Shown one piece after another: positions 9,713-19,255 of a stretch of DNA of 64,000 nt. Each line of letters opens with the position of its first letter. The stretch's first letter is position 1. Where the stretch lies: the NCBI GenBank assembly GCA_014695255.1, contig JACJNX010000040.1:124001-188000 (forward strand), given 5' to 3'. Below the pieces are notes generated by a model, which was given only the letters and a program-made list of their open reading frames with translations, was not told where the DNA came from and searched no databases. Made by a program: the position numbers and the translations under genes. The DNA comes from Cyanobacteria bacterium FACHB-63 (GTDB taxonomy: Bacteria > Cyanobacteriota > Cyanobacteriia > Leptolyngbyales > Leptolyngbyaceae).

Positions 9713-10552
9713 ATGACGGGTCAACTTCTCAACACTGACGAAATCAGCATAGAGCTAGATATTAGCCATTTGACGATCGAGGACGATACGCTTGTAGATC
9801 ATCTCCAATCAGAAAAGCAGCAACGACTGTTGGTCGAGCCGCTCTACAGTTCTAAAACGCTACCGTCCCCATTTCTCGCCGCTGCAAATGTTGGACTGTT
9901 CTATAAGCTGAAAGGCGATCCAGTCGTGCCTGATGTCATGCTCAGTTTGGGAGTGCAGTGCGCTGAGGACTTTTCTCAAAAAGAAAATCGTTCCTATTTT
10001 GTGTGGGAGTTTGGCAAGCTGCCAGAAGTTTGCATCGAAATCGTCTCGAACCAAGAAGGAGATGAGCTTGCTTTAAGTCGCAAGTCGCAGCAGAAAGGAA
10101 AGACGACTGCTAAAAAAGATCTTTATTCTCAAATCCGCATTCCCTATTATGTGGTGTTCGACCCGCTCCGACAAATTCAGGGTGAGAACGAAATGAACGG
10201 AGCTTGGTTACGAGTTTGGTCGAATTTTGCGGGTCGATATACAGAACTGACTCCATTAGAGGGCATTACTGAGGTCGGACAGTCGGTTTGGCTAGAGGAA
10301 GTAGGACTGGGACTCACGCTCTGGGAAGGACAGTTTGGAGAAGACCTGACGCGGCTTTGGTTGCGGTGGTGCGATCGATCCGGGCAAGTCATTTCCACGG
10401 GTGCGGAACGAGCGGAGGCAGAACGGCAACGAGCAGAAGCAGAACGGCAACGAGCAGAAACCGAACGCCTCAGAGCCAATAAAGCTGAGGAAAAAGCTCA
10501 ACGATTAGCAGAACGCCTACGATCGATGGGAATTGACCCCGATGAAGTTTAG
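9713..10552 (+). CDS. Uma2 family protein (PD-(D/E)XK nuclease-like, DUF820)
   Basis: A 279-residue member of the Uma2 family, which is abundant in cyanobacteria and predicted to have a restriction-endonuclease-like fold. The core shows VVPDVMLSLG and EVCIEIVSNQEGDE (acidic residues of the presumed active site) and YYVVFDPL. After about residue 230 comes a charged coiled coil with the repeats AERQRAEAERQRAETER. A paralogue with the same layout and very similar sequence lies at 12496-13329 in the opposite orientation. The gene overlaps the convergent holA by four bases. Biological function of the family is not established. Confidence 0.85.
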   Translation: MTGQLLNTDEISIELDISHLTIEDDTLVDHLQSEKQQRLLVEPLYSSKTLPSPFLAAANVGLFYKLKGDPVVPDVMLSLGVQCAEDFSQKENRSYFVWEFGKLPEVCIEIVSNQEGDELALSRKSQQKGKTTAKKDLYSQIRIPYYVVFDPLRQIQGENEMNGAWLRVWSNFAGRYTELTPLEGITEVGQSVWLEEVGLGLTLWEGQFGEDLTRLWLRWCDRSGQVISTGAERAEAERQRAEAERQRAETERLRANKAEEKAQRLAERLRSMGIDPDEV

Positions 10553-12495: not shown

Positions 12496-13329
12496 CTATG
12501 CTTCATCGGGATCAATCCCTAGTGCCCGGAGTCTCTCAGCCAGTCGTTCGGCGCGTTGGCGTTCTGTCTCGGCACGTTGGCGTTCTGCTTCGGCTTGGCG
12601 GCGTTCGATTTCGGCGCGTTGACGCTCCATTTCTAGACCTTCGGCTCCAGTTGGAATCACTTGGCCGGAGCGATCGCACCATCGCAACCAGAGGCGCGTT
12701 ATTTCGTCTTCAAACTGCCCTTCCCAGAGAGATAGACCCAATCCAACGGCTTCGAGCCAGACGAATTGCCCCGGTTGCGAGAGTCCCTCTAGTGGAGTCA
12801 ATTCGACATAGCCGCTTTGTGCGATCTCCCACACGCGGAGTAGTGCGCCATTCATATCAGCCTGAATTTGCTGAAGTGGATCGAACACCACATAGCAACG
12901 GGCACCGATCTGAGCATAAATGTCTTTTTTCGCTGTCGTTTTCCCTTTCTGTCGAGATTTCTGGCTGAGGGTAACTTTATCCCCTTCTTGGTTAGAAACG
13001 ATTTCAATACAGACTTCTGGCACTTTACCGAACTCCCACACAAAATAGGATCGGTTTCGGCGTTGCGAAAGATCTTCAGCGCGTTGGACTCCGAGACTAA
13101 GCATCGCATCCGGTACGATTGGATCGCCCTTGAGCTTGTAGAATAATCCAACATTTGCAGCCGCTAGGAAGGGGGCAGGCAGCGCTTTGGAACTATAGAG
13201 CGGTTCCACTAATAAGCGTTGCTGTTCTTCAGATTGAAAATTGTCCACGGGGGTATCGTCCTCGATCGCCAGATGGCTGATGTCTAGCTCTGTAATGATG
13301 TCTTCGTCATTCAGCAGATCTTGAGACAT
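12496..13329 (-). CDS. Uma2 family protein, paralogue of the gene at 9713
   Basis: Same architecture as the gene at 9713-10552: a Uma2 core (IVPDAMLSLG, EVCIEIVSNQEGD, CYVVFDPL) followed by a coiled coil of ERQRAE repeats and a closing LRALGIDPDEA, against LRSMGIDPDEV in the paralogue. The ATG at 13329 has a GAGGGA site eight bases upstream; a TTG six bases earlier is in frame but less likely. The two copies face each other around holA and the DUF1868 gene, so they probably arose by inverted duplication. The presumed catalytic acidic residues are kept in both. Confidence 0.85.
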   Translation of the reverse strand: MSQDLLNDEDIITELDISHLAIEDDTPVDNFQSEEQQRLLVEPLYSSKALPAPFLAAANVGLFYKLKGDPIVPDAMLSLGVQRAEDLSQRRNRSYFVWEFGKVPEVCIEIVSNQEGDKVTLSQKSRQKGKTTAKKDIYAQIGARCYVVFDPLQQIQADMNGALLRVWEIAQSGYVELTPLEGLSQPGQFVWLEAVGLGLSLWEGQFEDEITRLWLRWCDRSGQVIPTGAEGLEMERQRAEIERRQAEAERQRAETERQRAERLAERLRALGIDPDEA

Positions 13330-13370
13330 AGACAATCCCTCAACTCGATAGGACTATTATGGCGCGATCG

Positions 13371-14873
13371 TCATTTCAACCGCTCAACCAGGTGATCGCC
13401 CACTCGCAACGCATTCGCCATCACGGTCAGCGACGGACTCACACTCGCATTTGATGGGAAGAAGCTACTATCCACCACGTAAAGATTATCGACTTCATGG
13501 GTGCGACAGTTGAGATCTAACACGGAAGTATTTGGATCTTCGCCAAATCGACAAGTACCGCATTGATGCGCCACCACTTGAATCGGCATATCACTGCGAG
13601 GATGGGCAGCGCGATTGAAGATTGAAGGTTGGGACGCTTCGACTTGTTTGAGCGTATCAATCCACCGATAGACTAAGCGATCGTGCGCCTCAACGTTGTT
13701 GGCGGTGTAGTCAATGTGCAGCTTATCTCCGACAAAGCGGATACGATTATCGGGGTTCGGTAAGTCCTCAGTTTGTAGCCACCAACCGAGCGATCGCGTT
13801 GCCAATTGGCGAATTCCAAATCCGGGCAACACTCGCGAAATCGCAGAGAGAACTGGAGGTGCTTCGGTAAAAATCACATCTTGCAAGATGCCACCTGAGT
13901 TCTGGACATGACCCATTGGATAGCGATAGTCACCATTCCCCCAGTAAAAATCATTGATCCCAACTGTGCGCTGGAATAGTCCGGAGTTCGCGTCTGCCAT
14001 CAGTTGCACCACAACTGATAGCTGTTGCTTCATGAGATTGCGCCCGACTTGATTGGAATGGTTCGCGATGCCGTTTGGGTGCTTCTCGTTTTGCGATCGC
14101 AACAATAATGCCGCAGAGTTGATCGCACCACAAGACAACACAATGATATGCCCAAGGAAGAGATACGATTGTTCACCGATCTTAGCTTGAACAGCCTTGA
14201 TCTCTGTTCCAGAAGGATTCGTATGTAAGCAAACAACCTGAGCAGAAGTCTTTAGCGTGACATTCTCGTAGTCCAGAATCGGAGTAATCCCCGTATCTTC
14301 TGCATCGGTTCTACCTTGCTGATTGATGCCCAGAGGTAAATAGGCGGGATGTAAGCCTTGCTTGGAAAGTCCATCACACACCGTTTGAACGTGTGATTCG
14401 TGCGAAACCTCAGAAAATGGATAGTCTTCGCTGTGTGTGGGTTCTGTAGGATCATCCCCTAGCTTGCCGTGAACTTGGTACAGCTTTTCAGCTTCAGTGT
14501 AGTAAGGCTCAAAGTCCGAGTATTTCACGCCCCACTCTGGAGAAATGCCGTCTTGATGCTCAACGGCTTCAAAGTCTCGATCGCGCATTCGCATCAAGAC
14601 TCCGCTATAGATTTTTGTATTGCCGCCGACACAATAGCTGGTTTGAGGATAAAACGGCTCTCCGTTGTCGTCGTACCATTGTTCTGGAGCATGAAACTGT
14701 TCTTTTTTGAATAGTTCAATGTCCTGAGCTTGAGAACTTTCTCGAATCGGAAAGAAGCCACGCTCTAGAACCAGAATCTTTTTGCCTGTAGGAGCAAGCT
14801 TACGCGCTAGAGTACCGCCTCCTGCACCTGTACCGACAATAATCACATCATAGAATTGATCATCAATAATCAT
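13371..14873 (-). CDS. GMC family FAD-dependent oxidoreductase
   Basis: A 500-residue flavoprotein of the glucose-methanol-choline oxidoreductase family. It has the N-terminal dinucleotide fold VGTGAGGGTLARKL followed by an acidic strand end (LVLERG), the YCVGGNTKIYSGVLMRM block, and the C-terminal VDSSFFPSNASVSPSLT block that carries the FAD/active-site region. The substrate (alcohol, sugar or polyol) is unknown. There is no signal peptide. It begins ten bases after the stop of cytochrome oxidase subunit III and is the last gene of that block, so it is probably cotranscribed with the oxidase. That suggests it could feed electrons to the quinone pool used by the oxidase (inference). Confidence 0.85.
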   Translation of the reverse strand: MIIDDQFYDVIIVGTGAGGGTLARKLAPTGKKILVLERGFFPIRESSQAQDIELFKKEQFHAPEQWYDDNGEPFYPQTSYCVGGNTKIYSGVLMRMRDRDFEAVEHQDGISPEWGVKYSDFEPYYTEAEKLYQVHGKLGDDPTEPTHSEDYPFSEVSHESHVQTVCDGLSKQGLHPAYLPLGINQQGRTDAEDTGITPILDYENVTLKTSAQVVCLHTNPSGTEIKAVQAKIGEQSYLFLGHIIVLSCGAINSAALLLRSQNEKHPNGIANHSNQVGRNLMKQQLSVVVQLMADANSGLFQRTVGINDFYWGNGDYRYPMGHVQNSGGILQDVIFTEAPPVLSAISRVLPGFGIRQLATRSLGWWLQTEDLPNPDNRIRFVGDKLHIDYTANNVEAHDRLVYRWIDTLKQVEASQPSIFNRAAHPRSDMPIQVVAHQCGTCRFGEDPNTSVLDLNCRTHEVDNLYVVDSSFFPSNASVSPSLTVMANALRVGDHLVERLK

Positions 14874-14883
14874 GGCGCTGCTC

Positions 14884-15492
14884 CTACTGCCAGACGTAAA
14901 TCAGAACATACAAAATAATCCAGATGACATCGACAAAGTGCCAGAACAAAGAGGTCGCTTCGACTCCAAAGTAACCACTGTCATAGTTACCAGGAATAAA
15001 CGATCGACCAATCATCACCGTTTGCAGTAGGATTCCACTCAGAACGTGCAAGCCATGAAACCCGGTTAATAGATAAAACAATCCACCGAATACGCCCGAT
15101 GTTAGTCCAAAGCTCAGTTGACTCCATTCAACAGCTTGACCATAAAGGAAGTAACCCCCCATTGCCATTGTTGCTAGCAGAAATAGTCGAAAGCCCCAAA
15201 GCTTTTTATCATGAAGGTATCGTTCCGCCACATAAATAACAAAGCTACTGGAAACAAGAACGATCGTGTTGATCAACGGTTCTCTTGTCTCTAGATGAGT
15301 AACTCCAGGCGGATACCAATCAGAATTGCTGGTTTTGAACACACTGTAGCCGACAAAGAAGCTGAGAAAAATTACGCTCTCAGACAGCAGGAACACAATA
15401 AAACCGAATTTACTGTTTTCTGCTTCCTCGTGTGCCTGCTCGGATCGAATATCAGCTTCTACAGATTGCGCGATCGAACGTTCTGTGGTCAT
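14884..15492 (-). CDS. ctaE: Haem-copper oxidase subunit III
   Basis: A 202-residue membrane subunit with five hydrophobic helices. It shows the family block LLTGFHGLHVLSGILL (conserved His residues) and the C-terminal LFWHFVDVIWIILYVLIYVW typical of CoxIII/CyoC. It overlaps the subunit I gene by four bases (ATGA), so the two are translationally coupled. With the CuA-less subunit II in this operon it belongs to an ARTO-like oxidase rather than a standard cytochrome c oxidase. Confidence 0.92.
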   Translation of the reverse strand: MTTERSIAQSVEADIRSEQAHEEAENSKFGFIVFLLSESVIFLSFFVGYSVFKTSNSDWYPPGVTHLETREPLINTIVLVSSSFVIYVAERYLHDKKLWGFRLFLLATMAMGGYFLYGQAVEWSQLSFGLTSGVFGGLFYLLTGFHGLHVLSGILLQTVMIGRSFIPGNYDSGYFGVEATSLFWHFVDVIWIILYVLIYVWQ

Positions 15493-17177
15493 GTCGTTAC
15501 TCCATCAGCGGGGACAATCTCGGACTGATTCTCGACAAGCGGTTGATTTTTGCCGTACTGATAAGGCGGTGAAATCACCACAGGAATTTTTTCAAAGTTC
15601 TCGACTGGAGGCGGCGAAGTTGTGAGCCATTCGAGACCGATCGCCCGCCAAGGATTGTTCGGTGCTTTCTCTCCCTGAATCCAAGAACTCACCACGTTCA
15701 GAATGAACGGTAGCACTGAAATTCCGAGCAGAAACCCGCCCAGGCTTGCCATCACATTCCACAGCGCAAACTCAGGATCATACGAAGACACGCGGCGCGG
15801 CATTCCCATCAGTCCCGCAAAGTGCATCGGGAAGAAACACAAGGTTGTGCCAATGAAAGTCAGCGCAAAGTGTAGCTTTCCAAGTCCTTCGTAATACATT
15901 CTCCCGGTCATTTTCGGGAACCAATGATACAAACCTGCATAGATCCCAAAGACGATCGTGCCGTAAATCACGTAATGGAAATGAGCTACGACAAAGTAAG
16001 TATTGTTGACGTGAATGTCGATCGGCACTGATCCCAACATCACCCCAGTAATGCCAGCAAACACAAAGTTTGTGATTCCAGCGAGAGCAAACAACATCGA
16101 AGTCGTCAGCCGCAGCTTTCCGCCCCAAATTGTTGCCACCCAACCAAAAACCTTAATTCCGGTTGGAACAGATACAAGCAGCGTGGTGAACATAAACAGA
16201 ATTCGCATCCATCCGGGAGTCCCACTGGCATACATATGATGCACCCACACCAAGCCGCTAATGAAGGTGATCATGAGCGATGAAGTCGCAATCACTCGAT
16301 ATCCAAACAACGGCTTTCTTGCATAAACCGGCAGCACCTCGGAGAACATCCCAAACACGGGGAGCACCATCACATACACAGCAGGATGAGAATAGAACCA
16401 GAAGAAGTGCTGATACAACACTGGATTTCCGCCTCGCTCTGGCGCAAAGAAGCTGGTTCCTAACGTTAAATCGAACAATAGCATCACGGCTCCGGCAGTC
16501 AGTGCGGGCAATCCATAAAGCTGAATGAGCTGTGCGGCTAACACTGACCAGACAAACGCGGGAGTTCTATACCAGGTCATTCCGGGTGCGCGCATTCTGA
16601 CGATCGTCGTCACAAAGTTCACGCCACCAAGAATCGAGGACACCCCAGAAATCGCAACTGCAAGAATCCATAGCACCTGACCATTAATCAGATTCCCGGT
16701 GGGATTTTGTAAGCTAACAGGTGGATAAGCCCACCATCCTGACTGTGAAGGACCACCCGGAACAAAAAAGCTCGCGATCATCAAAATCCCAACTACAGGG
16801 ATCATCCAGAACGAAACCGCATTCAGTCTGGGAAAAGCCATATCTCGCGCCCCGATCATCAAGGGTACTATATAGTTACTCAATCCCACCAATACGGGAA
16901 ACGTCCACATAAATAGCATGATCGAACCGTGCATCGTGAACAATGCGTTATAGACTGTTCGATCGACCAAATCCGCTTCGGGTGTAATCAATTCACCGCG
17001 CATGATCATCGACAGCAATCCGCCGATCAAAAAGAAGACATACGCCGTCACAATGTACTGAATCCCAATCACCTTGTGATCAGTGCTGAAGGTGAAAAAT
17101 CGCTTCCAGTTATCGGGCGCACCAGGATACGGTTGCTGGCGGGCGACCTCGATCGCTTCTACAGGAACATTCGTCAT
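15489..17177 (-). CDS. ctaD: Haem-copper oxidase subunit I
   Basis: Catalytic subunit holding a low-spin haem and the haem-CuB oxygen-reduction site; 562 residues with about 12 membrane helices. Ligands are visible: the His of FTMHGSIMLF (low-spin haem), HPAVY (CuB His plus the cross-linked Tyr), VWVHHMYASG (two CuB His) and HVNNTYFVVAHFHYVIYG (haem ligands). The proton-channel glutamate of HPEVY is replaced by Ala, and the motif reads YSHPAVY. This is the Tyr-Ser replacement known from A2-type oxidases. The D-channel aspartate region GARDMAFPRLN is retained. Operon: DUF2231-DUF2231-ctaC-ctaD-ctaE-GMC. Confidence 0.95.
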   Translation of the reverse strand: MTNVPVEAIEVARQQPYPGAPDNWKRFFTFSTDHKVIGIQYIVTAYVFFLIGGLLSMIMRGELITPEADLVDRTVYNALFTMHGSIMLFMWTFPVLVGLSNYIVPLMIGARDMAFPRLNAVSFWMIPVVGILMIASFFVPGGPSQSGWWAYPPVSLQNPTGNLINGQVLWILAVAISGVSSILGGVNFVTTIVRMRAPGMTWYRTPAFVWSVLAAQLIQLYGLPALTAGAVMLLFDLTLGTSFFAPERGGNPVLYQHFFWFYSHPAVYVMVLPVFGMFSEVLPVYARKPLFGYRVIATSSLMITFISGLVWVHHMYASGTPGWMRILFMFTTLLVSVPTGIKVFGWVATIWGGKLRLTTSMLFALAGITNFVFAGITGVMLGSVPIDIHVNNTYFVVAHFHYVIYGTIVFGIYAGLYHWFPKMTGRMYYEGLGKLHFALTFIGTTLCFFPMHFAGLMGMPRRVSSYDPEFALWNVMASLGGFLLGISVLPFILNVVSSWIQGEKAPNNPWRAIGLEWLTTSPPPVENFEKIPVVISPPYQYGKNQPLVENQSEIVPADGVTT

Positions 17178-17204
17178 CGCAATTTATCCAGTTATTTTAA
17201 TTTG

Positions 17205-18143
17205 CTAAGCAGCGGGGCTAGTCGGTTCTTGTTTGGGTGCAAAGTTTACAACCGGAGGTGGTGCAGGTTCCACCGTTTTCCAACCTCGAACTACGTTTTT
17301 CTCAGCGCTGCGGGCGTGTTCTGCGGCAGCGGGATTAAAGGCGGGAGTGGGAGATTGGCTCGCAGCAGTGGCTAACCAGCGATCGTAGTCTTCCTGAGAT
17401 TGAACGACGACATCTGCTTGATTCGAGGCAAAATAAGTTCCACTGTAGATCGAGTCTCGCAGGCGATATTTTCCAACCTGAACAGGCGTGAATTCAAAAT
17501 CGATCGTTTTGCTCGGAATCACATCTTGCTTTAACCGAAATGCAGGGACATAAAATCCGTGTAGCACGTCATCTGAGTGCAAAGTGAGATGAATGCGATG
17601 ATCAACCGGTAAATGTAGCTCGGTGCTCGTAATGTTCTGAGCCGGATAGCGAAAGATCCAAGCCCATTGTTTTGCAGTCACATCGATCGTCTCGGTTGGA
17701 AGCCCTGGCTTCACTTCATTCAAGTTGACTGCATAAGCGGCTTGCATCTCCATTGGATTGTGCAGATGCACCAATTCCATTGGACCTCGAATTGCCATTG
17801 CATCATAGATTTGATAGCTATAGGTTGCAATCCACAGCACCAACGCTAAGGGAGCCGCTGTCCAGAGAATTTCGATCGTCGTATTACCTTCAACGTGCGG
17901 TCCATCGCTAAAGTCATACTTTTCGGCACGCTGGAACAGTACCGAATACAGCACCACTAATGAGATACCCAGCAAAATGAAGGTTCCGATCCCCGTCAGA
18001 ATGCTAAACAGTTCATCATATAGCTTTGATTCAGCCGAAGCCTGCGGTGGAAACCAAGAGTACGCCTGCTTTGCCATCCAAAAACTAGCAGTCGTTAGGA
18101 ACGCAACAAAAGCGCTGATTACTAAAATCGGACGAAGTTTCAT
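17205..18143 (-). CDS. ctaC: Haem-copper oxidase subunit II lacking the CuA site (ARTO-like)
   Basis: A 312-residue subunit with a signal-like first helix, two membrane helices (about residues 48-70 and 90-110) and a periplasmic/lumenal cupredoxin domain. The conserved QWAWIFRYP tryptophan segment and DDVLHGFYVPAFRLKQDVIPS are present. The CuA ligand loop, normally CxExCGxxHxxM, reads instead YRLRDSIYSGTYFASNQADV, with no cysteine. The subunit therefore cannot bind CuA and is unlikely to take electrons from cytochrome c. This matches the alternative respiratory terminal oxidase (ARTO) of cyanobacteria, proposed to oxidise quinol. A Pro/Ala-rich tail of about 50 residues follows. Confidence 0.9.
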   Translation of the reverse strand: MKLRPILVISAFVAFLTTASFWMAKQAYSWFPPQASAESKLYDELFSILTGIGTFILLGISLVVLYSVLFQRAEKYDFSDGPHVEGNTTIEILWTAAPLALVLWIATYSYQIYDAMAIRGPMELVHLHNPMEMQAAYAVNLNEVKPGLPTETIDVTAKQWAWIFRYPAQNITSTELHLPVDHRIHLTLHSDDVLHGFYVPAFRLKQDVIPSKTIDFEFTPVQVGKYRLRDSIYSGTYFASNQADVVVQSQEDYDRWLATAASQSPTPAFNPAAAEHARSAEKNVVRGWKTVEPAPPPVVNFAPKQEPTSPAA

Positions 18144-18149
18144 GAGCTT

Positions 18150-18758
18150 CTACAGTTTAAGGTCGGGGTTTTCGCCTGCTTTAATCAGTTGATCTGCCGT
18201 GATGTGAATGCCAAATTCGCCGCCTAAATGCGCTCCCAGTGTTCCTTGCAAATACATAATCAAGAAAATCACAAGACCCGCAGCGATGTAGCTCCACTGT
18301 ACCTGACGCGCCATATCTTTTCGCCAAGCAAACCGCTGAAAGCCTCGCCACACGGTCATGGCAACAATCAAGGTTAACAGCACCACACCGCCAACCCCAT
18401 GCCAAGTCATTGTAGTTAATGCCTGCAATCCCCAACCACTGCGGACATCGGGGATCGGATCAGCCAGAAGCATTTCGTAAAAGCCAGAAGCAACCGTGAA
18501 AAACGTAATCACAGCCGCTCCGAGCATATTGAACCAACCGACATCGAATAATCCCGATCGCGTCACCGGAATCGAGAGATACTTAAACAGGGCTTTATCC
18601 ACCGGAAATAGCACCCCGACAATATCAAACGAAATCGCCACAATGAACAATCCCAAGGTTAAATGCACCAGATTGGGATGAATTGGAACTACATACGGTA
18701 AATGATTCGCTCCTAACTGATCTGCTAATTGATCAAGGAGTTCTGTTTTAGTCGTCAC
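18150..18758 (-). CDS. DUF2231 family membrane protein
   Basis: A 202-residue integral membrane protein with about four helices. The hallmark HPNLVH (about residue 27) lies at the start of the first helix, a second histidine sits in MTWHGVGG in a later helix, and the C-terminus has HLGGEFGIHIT. The start is GTG at 18758 with a strong GGAGGA site six bases upstream, overlapping the previous stop as GTGA; a much longer upstream frame is not credible. It is directly upstream of the oxidase genes. Paired membrane histidines make haem b binding possible, but this is inference. Confidence 0.82.
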   Translation of the reverse strand: MTTKTELLDQLADQLGANHLPYVVPIHPNLVHLTLGLFIVAISFDIVGVLFPVDKALFKYLSIPVTRSGLFDVGWFNMLGAAVITFFTVASGFYEMLLADPIPDVRSGWGLQALTTMTWHGVGGVVLLTLIVAMTVWRGFQRFAWRKDMARQVQWSYIAAGLVIFLIMYLQGTLGAHLGGEFGIHITADQLIKAGENPDLKL

Positions 18759-19255
18759 AGTTGTCCTCCTTTTATCGCTTCGACGACGGGAACAGAATGG
18801 AGTCCATAGACCCACACTAATAAGTCCCCTAAGTAAGTCTGAGCAATGACCAGTCCCACCAGTGCAACACTGGCAACAATATAAGGGGTTGGAAGCTGAG
18901 GCTTGTTTTGCATCCGGAGGACATAGCGCCATCCGGTTACAGCCGCCAAAATTCCAGACAGCGACCAACCCAAGATGGAATGTAAATTCAACGTCGAGAC
19001 AGCAGCATCATAAGGTTCTGCAAGTCCCGCTTCAATCTGTCCAAAAATGACGGCAATAAAGATAGAGACCGTGGCAAATACCAAGTTCCACCAACTGACC
19101 TCTGCTAGTTTTGGATTGCGCGTCAAGTAGCTGACCATATCGCAAACAAACGCGAACAATACCATCGCGATGACAAAATGCACCACGATGGGATGGATGG
19201 TATCGGGATACGGCAAATTATGCTCGTTGAGCGGTGGGAGAAGAGAGTCAAGCAC
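18755..19255 (-). CDS. DUF2231 family membrane protein
   Basis: A 166-residue membrane protein related in layout to the next gene. It has HPIVVH (about residue 21) at the start of helix 1, LNLHSILGW in helix 3 and four predicted helices. It starts at GTG 19255 with a GAG-type ribosome site. Its stop overlaps the start of the second DUF2231 gene, so the pair is coupled and may form a heteromer. It is the first gene of the six-gene terminal oxidase block, preceded by 347 bp of non-coding DNA. Confidence 0.82.
   Translation of the reverse strand: MLDSLLPPLNEHNLPYPDTIHPIVVHFVIAMVLFAFVCDMVSYLTRNPKLAEVSWWNLVFATVSIFIAVIFGQIEAGLAEPYDAAVSTLNLHSILGWSLSGILAAVTGWRYVLRMQNKPQLPTPYIVASVALVGLVIAQTYLGDLLVWVYGLHSVPVVEAIKGGQL

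Follow-up and report, generated by a model that had tools for sequence, protein, structure and literature searches.

ARTO, the CuA-less oxidase of cyanobacteria, is depicted as a quinol oxidase of three subunits, after the model of bo3 of E. coli, whose subunit II also lacks CuA. In bo3 the quinol site is formed by the cluster Arg71-Asp75-His98-Gln101 (excerpt of PMC10256718, in which residue 101 is printed as Glu101); part of PMC9731990 likewise assigns Arg71 and Asp75 to it, and gives an extra N-terminal helix, TM0, as a bo3 feature. The closest described counterpart of the locus reported here is the Qox/Cox3 operon of Anabaena sp. PCC 7120, alr2729-alr2730-coxB3-coxA3-coxC3, named in an excerpt of a review that calls it unclear whether ARTO has further subunits (PMC6616624). 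In one expression table, alr2729 and alr2730 ('putative membrane protein') drop together with cox3B and cox3A (excerpt of PMC7065334), and the available portion of another study reports lower alr2730 and coxB3 in a sigC mutant and lower alr2729 and alr2730, but not coxB3, in a sigE mutant (PMC4390870). NtcA binding upstream of alr2729 is recorded in a section of PMC3898017.

A six-gene type-1 ARTO operon

The window analyzed here, 64,000 nucleotides from Cyanobacteria bacterium FACHB-63 (contig JACJNX010000040.1, positions 124,001 to 188,000), carries between positions 13371 and 19255 a block of six open reading frames, all on the minus strand, whose order DUF2231a-DUF2231b-ctaC-ctaD-ctaE-GMC is that of a type-1 ARTO operon. 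The first two, DUF2231a (18755..19255; P0006, 166 aa, GTG start) and DUF2231b (18150..18758; P0005, 202 aa, GTG start after aggagg), overlap by 4 bases (18755-18758) and encode predicted four-helix membrane proteins. After 6 bases comes ctaC (17205..18143), for ARTO subunit II, and 27 bases further ctaD (15489..17177), for subunit I, which shares 4 bases (15489-15492) with ctaE (14884..15492), for subunit III; a GMC flavoprotein gene (13371..14873; P0001, 500 aa) begins 10 bases beyond ctaE. Genes, strand, overlaps and gaps are all as the preliminary description had given them, and so are the histidine motifs it had picked out, namely HPxxVH in both DUF2231 proteins, WHG in DUF2231b, and LHS in DUF2231a (LHT in most relatives). 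By Pfam, both membrane proteins belong to PF09990 (141.3 and 122.9 bits, cut-off 26.4), the oxidase subunits to COX2_TM/COX2, COX1, and COX3, and the flavoprotein to GMC_oxred_N/C (76.6 and 33.8 bits for PF05199 and PF00732, over cut-off). Since the same order is found again in relatives, it is more than chance. A promoter scan was uninformative, with 4 promoter-like sites, fewer than in shuffled sequence (mean 9.0), and none on the minus strand directly upstream of the GMC gene.

An oxidase with neither standard electron entry visible

The CtaC of this block is without CuA ligands, which the two other CtaC proteins of the same genome have, and the CuA motif occurs in 0 of 63 loci (relatives plus type-1 survey matches). 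In CtaD, His83, His264, Tyr268, His313, His314, His399, and His401, which we take to serve the haems and the CuB site, are invariant in a 12-row alignment. The identification as an ARTO that has lost CuA, made in the preliminary description, is therefore upheld by both subunits. The four bo3 quinol-site residues of E. coli CyoB (Arg71, Asp75, His98, and Gln101) are replaced in all nine aligned ARTO CtaD proteins, and the residues at these positions here are hydrophobic or small; 32 residues precede DHK in this CtaD, compared with 52 in CyoB and 50 in one ARTO (L039). Neither standard electron entry is thus visible, as subunit II is without CuA and subunit I without the bo3 site. The CuA-type CtaD of this genome likewise is without the bo3 residues, a lack that would thus be in keeping with any subunit I of the cytochrome-c-oxidase-like kind.

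A DUF2231 pair accompanies CuA-less oxidases

The survey covered 64 genomes of the same class, with 39 CuA-less and 78 CuA-type ctaC genes. The preliminary description had staked its case on the linkage recurring in related genomes, and it does recur: of the 39 CuA-less ctaC genes, 35 have a DUF2231 pair immediately upstream, and no DUF2231 gene lies within 8 kb of any of the 78 CuA-type genes. Two DUF2231 genes are found at most 2.5 kb upstream of every type-1 ctaC (29/29) and of six of the ten other CuA-less ones. The pair is located away from ctaC in three Synechocystis-like genomes and at one further locus, and all 33 genomes with a CuA-less ctaC contain it. These counts exclude matches from 12 genomes outside the class, a 97-bit fragment (G060:C15:260198), and two PF09990 matches below cut-off (G002, G011). 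Stand-alone DUF2231 genes, including two side by side in G062, were left out of the pair counts because Thr replaces the second His of HPxxVH in the three that were aligned (one from L005, two from L062). The two locus sets overlap (L018/L079 and L040/G058 are probably identical), and some rows are near-copies.

The pair also has recurrent company. A flavoprotein, either GMC or NdbC-like, recurs near it, with an NdbC-like protein in all seven type-2 loci that hold the pair; in Synechocystis-like genomes, where ctaC is elsewhere, the pair adjoins an NdbC-like flavoprotein in two of three cases (L056, L163), and none was seen beside it in the other (L164). Beyond the A-type enzymes, the pair stands beside cbb3-like ccoN-ccoO genes at two loci, in whose genomes no ccoP scored over cut-off; a third cbb3-like locus (G039) is without the pair. 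Functionally, the DUF2231 pair is very probably tied to ARTO.

Structurally, each protein carries four histidines (His21, His26, His92, and His153 in DUF2231a; His27, His32, His120, and His185 in DUF2231b) that are invariant in 52/52 DUF2231a and 52/52 DUF2231b sequences, with type-2, cbb3-like, and one Synechocystis-like locus included. Loop charges place both termini and the histidine side of the two proteins on the predicted p-side, and the predicted structures are four-helix bundles (pLDDT 73.2 and 80.0, respectively). Foldseek searches with these folds gave no match at E <= 0.001, and VIA-align matched them to four-helix bundles of a generic kind, some of them designed de novo; we dropped the attempt to read a function from the fold, given that COX3 and cytochrome b561 came up alongside such bundles and designs and none stood out. 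At the sequence level, with E <= 0.1 as the limit, the Ni_hydr_CYTB (cytochrome b561) family matched 9 of 20 members in one set (best E 0.0085) and 2 of 21 in the other (best E 0.0053), with the window's own proteins at 16.3 and 13.2 bits against a cut-off of 30.1, and other families matched no worse (DUF5090 in 10/20; COX1 in 5/20, best E 0.00033). Neither the fold searches (Foldseek, VIA-align) nor the Pfam searches identified the pair as haem proteins. Fusions of DUF2231 with Rieske proteins occur in other phyla.

The pair as a candidate electron entry

The reading we favor, at slightly under even chances, is that the DUF2231 pair is the electron-entry module of ARTO. DUF2231a and DUF2231b would together form a membrane module in which a haem b, or some other metal held by histidines, sits on the p-side (lumen or periplasm). 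Plastoquinol would be the electron donor of this module and the low-spin haem of CtaD its acceptor, and the module would stand in for the CuA/cytochrome c entry as well as for the quinol site of bo3. A linked flavoprotein may supply the quinol or the module, this supplier being the NdbC-like protein in type-2 ARTO loci, Synechocystis-like genomes, and cbb3-like loci, and a derived GMC protein in the present lineage. More tentatively, we posit a general form of the idea: ARTO would not be a bo3-like quinol oxidase, and an exchangeable DUF2231 haem module would oxidize plastoquinol on the p-side, plugged into CuA-less A-type and CcoP-less cbb3-like oxidases alike, with a flavoprotein close by.

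Several observations speak against the entry-module reading: the searches that pointed to no haem protein, the loci where the pair stands apart from ctaC, the cbb3-like locus that has no pair, the loci without GMC, and the sigE mutant of Anabaena, where alr2729 and alr2730 drop while coxB3 does not. A haem-free assembly role would also yield the same linkage. The pair could be an assembly factor for CuA-less oxidases, acting in haem or CuB insertion or subunit joining with no redox part, while ARTO itself oxidizes quinol; the strict genomic tie to oxidases and the pairing with two oxidase types agree with this, and the predicted p-side histidine clusters could hold copper or haem in transit. 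CuA-type oxidases, however, need haem and CuB as well and are without the pair throughout the survey, and the flavoprotein that recurs near the pair, even where ctaC is elsewhere, would be left unexplained. We regard such a role as unlikely. Somewhat less probable still is a direct quinol oxidase whose site differs from that of bo3, with the DUF2231 proteins as extra structural subunits. It would account for a subunit II in which no CuA site is left, but the four bo3 positions are hydrophobic or small, no substitute site was noticed in a non-systematic inspection, and the four invariant histidines would be unexpected, as structural subunits rarely retain so many. On its side is the review mentioned above, an excerpt of which terms ARTO bo3-type, with electrons taken straight from PQH2 (PMC6616624).

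A derived GMC flavoprotein

The preliminary description extended the linkage to the GMC gene, and here it held in part: GMC follows ctaE in all ten type-1 survey loci outside family f7 and in none of the 19 inside it, and overall the first set has 3 loci without it among 32, the survey 19 among 29. In other genomes up to 627 bases separate ctaE from the GMC gene (the value for L033, measured to a second ORF, is not meaningful). GMC matches below 580 bits were left out of this neighborhood survey. Evolutionarily, ARTO-linked GMCs form one clade (support 100/99) in a tree built without two linked proteins (L028, cut by a contig end, and L033, split into two ORFs) and without matches below 300 bits.

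The FAD glycine motif (Gly14, 16, 18, and 19) is intact in all 30 linked GMCs, the window's included. Of the two residues that we take to be catalytic in the family, a His and a second one that is His or Asn, the window protein has His436 (codon 13566..13568, minus strand) but Ser479 (codon 13437..13439, minus strand), leaving the pair incomplete. Asn is replaced by Ser in 29/30 linked GMCs, this position being the only column fixed for different residues in linked versus unlinked proteins, and the catalytic His by Asn in 12/30; unlinked paralogues retain His/Asn in 14/14, and aligned solved relatives have Asn at the Ser479 position. The linked GMC is likely to be catalytically altered, and, to judge from these substitutions, it probably no longer carries out ordinary alcohol oxidation.

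These replacements weaken the proposal of the preliminary description that the GMC is an ordinary alcohol or sugar dehydrogenase. An active enzyme feeding the quinone pool, and with it a dedicated substrate-to-oxygen chain, could draw on the intact FAD motif, the His436 kept in this genome, the 10-base gap to ctaE, the constant presence in type-1 survey loci outside f7, and sugar dehydrogenases as the best-scoring solved relatives. Set against the altered residues of the linked clade, the absence from f7, and the wide gaps elsewhere, this seems improbable to us. Under the entry-module reading, the GMC might act as an FAD electron carrier or as a dehydrogenase with altered chemistry.

Implications and comparison with known systems

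That the pair is a periplasm-facing metalloreductase (e.g., a ferric reductase) working with ARTO we consider very unlikely: the predicted p-side histidines, below-cut-off cytochrome b561 matches in some members, and the lower ferric reductase activity of Synechocystis without ARTO (Kranzler 2014, as told in an excerpt of PMC7676907) would suit it, but the b561 matches are weak, and the Anabaena type-1 oxidase is heterocyst-only, with O2 protection and ATP supply as its roles named in the excerpted review (PMC6616624). If the pair is instead the entrance to ARTO, schemes for cyanobacterial respiration, heterocyst O2 protection, and ARTO-dependent iron reduction would change, a Pfam family of unknown function would gain one, and a new connection from quinol to haem-copper oxidases would be added.

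The preliminary description took the arrangement to be undescribed, which needs qualifying. Within the open-access literature (PMC, with subscription papers mostly outside it), we found no paper tying DUF2231 to cytochrome oxidase, nor the rest of the arrangement; the one match for DUF2231 by itself deals with cysteines in DUF proteins, and among the PMC matches listed, none mentioned sll1485/sll1486 with NdbC.

Against known systems, the locus shows both likeness and difference. With E. coli bo3 (CyoABCD) it shares a haem-copper subunit I (36% identity to CtaD), whereas bo3 has the four quinol-site residues that ARTO CtaD lacks and a longer stretch before DHK. The fructose and glucose dehydrogenase large subunits, of the GMC family, share the FAD-binding N-terminus but keep Asn where the linked clade has Ser. 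MftG, a mycofactocin GMC dehydrogenase that feeds a respiratory chain, is the best NCBIfam match, yet the window GMC scores 72.6 bits where 387 would be needed and is no member. Synechocystis NdbC (sll1484) would correspond to the flavoprotein by the pair in L056 and L163, a naming that rests on a FAS1-like neighbor, presumably sll1483; NdbC and ARTO subunits are both placed in the Synechocystis plasma membrane in part of PMC6878006, which agrees with the entry-module reading. Six loci of family f7 (L067, L078-L082) differ from the window in having no GMC after ctaE. The arrangement itself is partly known, with the five-gene Anabaena operon already in print: like the block described here, this type-1 ARTO has two genes upstream of a CuA-less coxBAC (PMC6616624, excerpt), and from their position alr2729 and alr2730 would be DUF2231 proteins.

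Occurrence of the DUF2231 pair with CuA-less oxidases

Re-reading of the window confirmed the six ORFs of the block (13371-19255, minus strand), with the order, strand and junctions of the preliminary description, and Pfam matches identify a DUF2231 pair of membrane proteins, subunits II, I and III of an oxidase, and a flavoprotein of the GMC family. The host genome (7.23 Mb, 179 contigs, 99.98% completeness) contains three COX1, three DUF2231 and two GMC_oxred_C matches, with no match to cytochrome bd subunit I in a family search. Among its three CtaC proteins, the block copy is the only one without CuA ligands, so that the CuA-less subunit II originally claimed stands. Close to the block are two similar 279-aa ORFs in opposite orientation (window 9713-10552 (+) and 12496-13335 (-)), which we take to resemble the Uma2/DUF820 family.

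Genomic linkage ties the DUF2231 pair to CuA-less oxidases. A first set comprised 35 cyanobacterial relatives (L007-L041 of 40 loci fetched by CtaC, the other five being non-cyanobacterial); 33 of them carry both DUF2231 genes upstream, and in the two loci without a visible pair (L025, L030) the contig begins at or close to ctaC. A second survey, of 146 genomes of the phylum and overlapping the first set in part, gave 117 CtaC hits from the window's class, in which 64 genomes had a match (one 97-bit fragment excluded). Inspection of each hit showed the CuA motif to be absent from 39 and present in 78. CuA-less ctaC scoring 418 bits or more were termed type-1, and those scoring lower type-2. 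Two DUF2231 genes occur within 2.5 kb upstream of 29/29 type-1 and 6/10 type-2 ctaC, and the neighbourhood survey proposed in the preliminary description thus places the pair at 35 of 39 CuA-less ctaC, whereas no DUF2231 gene was found within 8 kb of any of the 78 CuA-type ctaC. Of the four CuA-less ctaC without an adjoining pair, three come from Synechocystis-like genomes (G076, G080, G093) in which the pair is located away from ctaC; the fourth is at a locus of G060, a genome with pairs elsewhere. By genome, the pair is present in 33/33 with CuA-less ctaC and in two of the 31 others (G036, G111).

The G060 locus L054:2672-4364, where a fragmentary type-2 ctaC and ctaD adjoin the pair and an NdbC-like gene and the oxidase genes appear broken, seems to be a decaying ARTO copy. 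A ctaC hit in G129 carries three in-frame stops, and in Pseudanabaena cinerea (L041:8897-11985) ctaC and ctaD are spaced by ~3 kb, more than in relatives.

Association with cbb3-like oxidases and NdbC-like flavoproteins

In G036 (L058:2078-7157) and G111 (L060:1008-6135), a single run comprises ccoN-like, ccoO-like, DUF2231a and DUF2231b genes, followed by a pyridine-nucleotide-type (NdbC-like) flavoprotein gene; DUF2231b of both loci has an extra C-terminal part. No ccoP scored above cut-off in either genome (seven weak hits, six in frames of 118-147 aa). The ccoN-like gene was found in 3/64 genomes, each time below the family cut-off, and in the third, G039, no pair adjoins it.

The NdbC-like family is present in all seven type-2 loci with a pair, either 3' of ctaE (L049, L050, L053, L068) or immediately before the pair (L051, on the opposite strand, L052 and L054). 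It also directly adjoins the pair, away from ctaC, in two of three Synechocystis-like loci (L056, L163), and was not seen beside the pair in the third (L164). None was found in the 35 loci L007-L041, and the type-1 locus L086 has a weak 65-bit NdbC-family hit before the pair. A host-genome protein on another contig (G000:C59:3850-5208, L185) is 53% identical to the NdbC-like protein beside the pair in G111. At L056, the gene next to the flavoprotein reads like a FAS1 protein, presumably sll1483 of Synechocystis, and from this neighbour we infer that the flavoprotein is NdbC (sll1484) and the pair sll1485-sll1486. NdbC is given as sll1484 in PMC9414918, and the naming agrees with the common plasma-membrane location of NdbB, NdbC and ARTO subunits described in passages of PMC6878006.

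The linked GMC flavoprotein

In the first set, ctaE was found in 32 loci; GMC lies 3' of it in 29 (gaps of 8-627 bases) and is absent there in L018, L036 and L037; at L028 it is cut off by the contig end, and in a MAG (L033:4670-6181) it is broken into two adjacent ORFs. No ctaE was found in L019, L026 or L024, the last being a second ARTO copy of Scytonematopsis contorta (L024:9000-9314) with only a broken piece of ctaD and no GMC found. In the survey, GMC follows 10 of 29 type-1 loci, so that the linkage first noted holds outside one taxonomic family, f7 (10/10), and is absent within it (0/19).

Evolutionarily, 30 linked GMCs form a single group (100/99) in a maximum-likelihood tree of 44 proteins, separate from 14 unlinked paralogues. 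With fixation taken as >90% within each group and a minimum of 12 unlinked letters, one column alone differs between the groups: residue 479 is Ser in 29/30 linked GMCs and Asn in 14/14 unlinked ones. From alignment with solved glucose and fructose dehydrogenases, we take Ser479 of the block GMC to stand where the catalytic pair has its Asn, with His436 as the catalytic His. His436 is replaced by Asn in 12/30 linked GMCs, giving dyads of His/Ser (18), Asn/Ser (11) and Asn/Asn (1), versus His/Asn in 14/14 unlinked; FAD glycines are intact in all GMCs aligned. As one tree group with a changed catalytic pair, the linked GMCs look, by sequence, to have been adopted once. The same change makes ordinary oxidation of alcohols or sugars less likely as their common function, and tells against the dehydrogenase role suggested for the block GMC, in whose favour are the His436 and FAD glycines that this copy retains.

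Canonical His/Asn GMCs lie ~9-11 kb from type-2 ARTO ctaC at L055:6483-14285 and L049:1497-9442, among genes that by eye are short-chain dehydrogenase-like and DoxX-like, with a glycogen-debranching-like gene at L055; these neighbours may hint at the substrate of the paralogues. At L049:3079-4707, a fusion of Rieske domain and pyridine-nucleotide reductase adjoins an unlinked GMC, as does, by eye, a like fusion at L063:2819-4456.

Candidate electron entry through DUF2231 and comparison with known oxidases

His21, 26, 92 and 153 of DUF2231a and His27, 32, 120 and 185 of DUF2231b are invariant in 52/52 sequences each (near-copies included); type-2 loci are represented, as are both cbb3-like loci and a single Synechocystis-like one. 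DUF2231a His12 varies (kept in 42/52), and the three stand-alone DUF2231 proteins aligned have Thr in place of the second HPxxVH histidine. Predicted structures of both proteins have four long helices. Mean K+R counts are 1.9 and 3.0 in loops 1 and 3 of DUF2231a, 3.0 and 3.5 in those of DUF2231b, and 0.1-1.4 elsewhere, and thus, by the positive-inside rule, both termini and the His side are predicted on the p-side. The invariant histidines and topology are consistent with a putative bis-His haem; fold and sequence searches named no haem-protein identity, and an assembly role for the pair is a rival reading. As the favoured mechanism, we posit that a flavoprotein would reduce quinone (NdbC-like in other loci, possibly GMC in the block), and that the DUF2231 module, on the p-side, would take electrons from plastoquinol and hand them to the low-spin haem of CtaD, with O2 reduced to water at haem-CuB, an oxidase end that is established for the family. 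A ferric reductase role, discussed with PMC7676907, is a further rival.

Such a chain had been thought undescribed. The operon alr2729-alr2730-coxB3-coxA3-coxC3 of Anabaena has, however, been published (PMC6616624); the literature searched yielded no paper linking DUF2231 to an oxidase, and passages of PMC6616624 leave unsettled whether enzymes of this kind hold further subunits. NtcA binds upstream of alr2729 (PMC3898017), and expression of alr2729 and alr2730 shifts together with cox3 (PMC7065334); alr2730 and coxB3 are down in a sigC mutant, and alr2729 and alr2730, not coxB3, in a sigE mutant (PMC4390870).

ARTO has been described as a bo3-like quinol oxidase taking electrons straight from plastoquinol (PMC6616624), and an unrecognised quinol site in ARTO is another rival to entry through DUF2231. 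The extra helix TM0 is restricted to quinol oxidases (PMC9731990), and 32 residues precede DHK in the block CtaD, compared with 52 in E. coli CyoB and 50 in one ARTO (L039). The quinol site of CyoB is a polar cluster of Arg71, Asp75, His98 and Gln101 (PMC10256718, which prints the last as Glu101; PMC9731990). When nine ARTO CtaD (seven type-1, two type-2) and the host genome's two CuA-type CtaD were aligned with CyoB, these residues were hydrophobic or small in 9/9 ARTO and equally replaced in the CuA-type proteins. Neither textbook electron entry is therefore visible in ARTO, since subunit II lacks CuA and subunit I, unlike that of E. coli bo3, has none of the four quinol-site residues.
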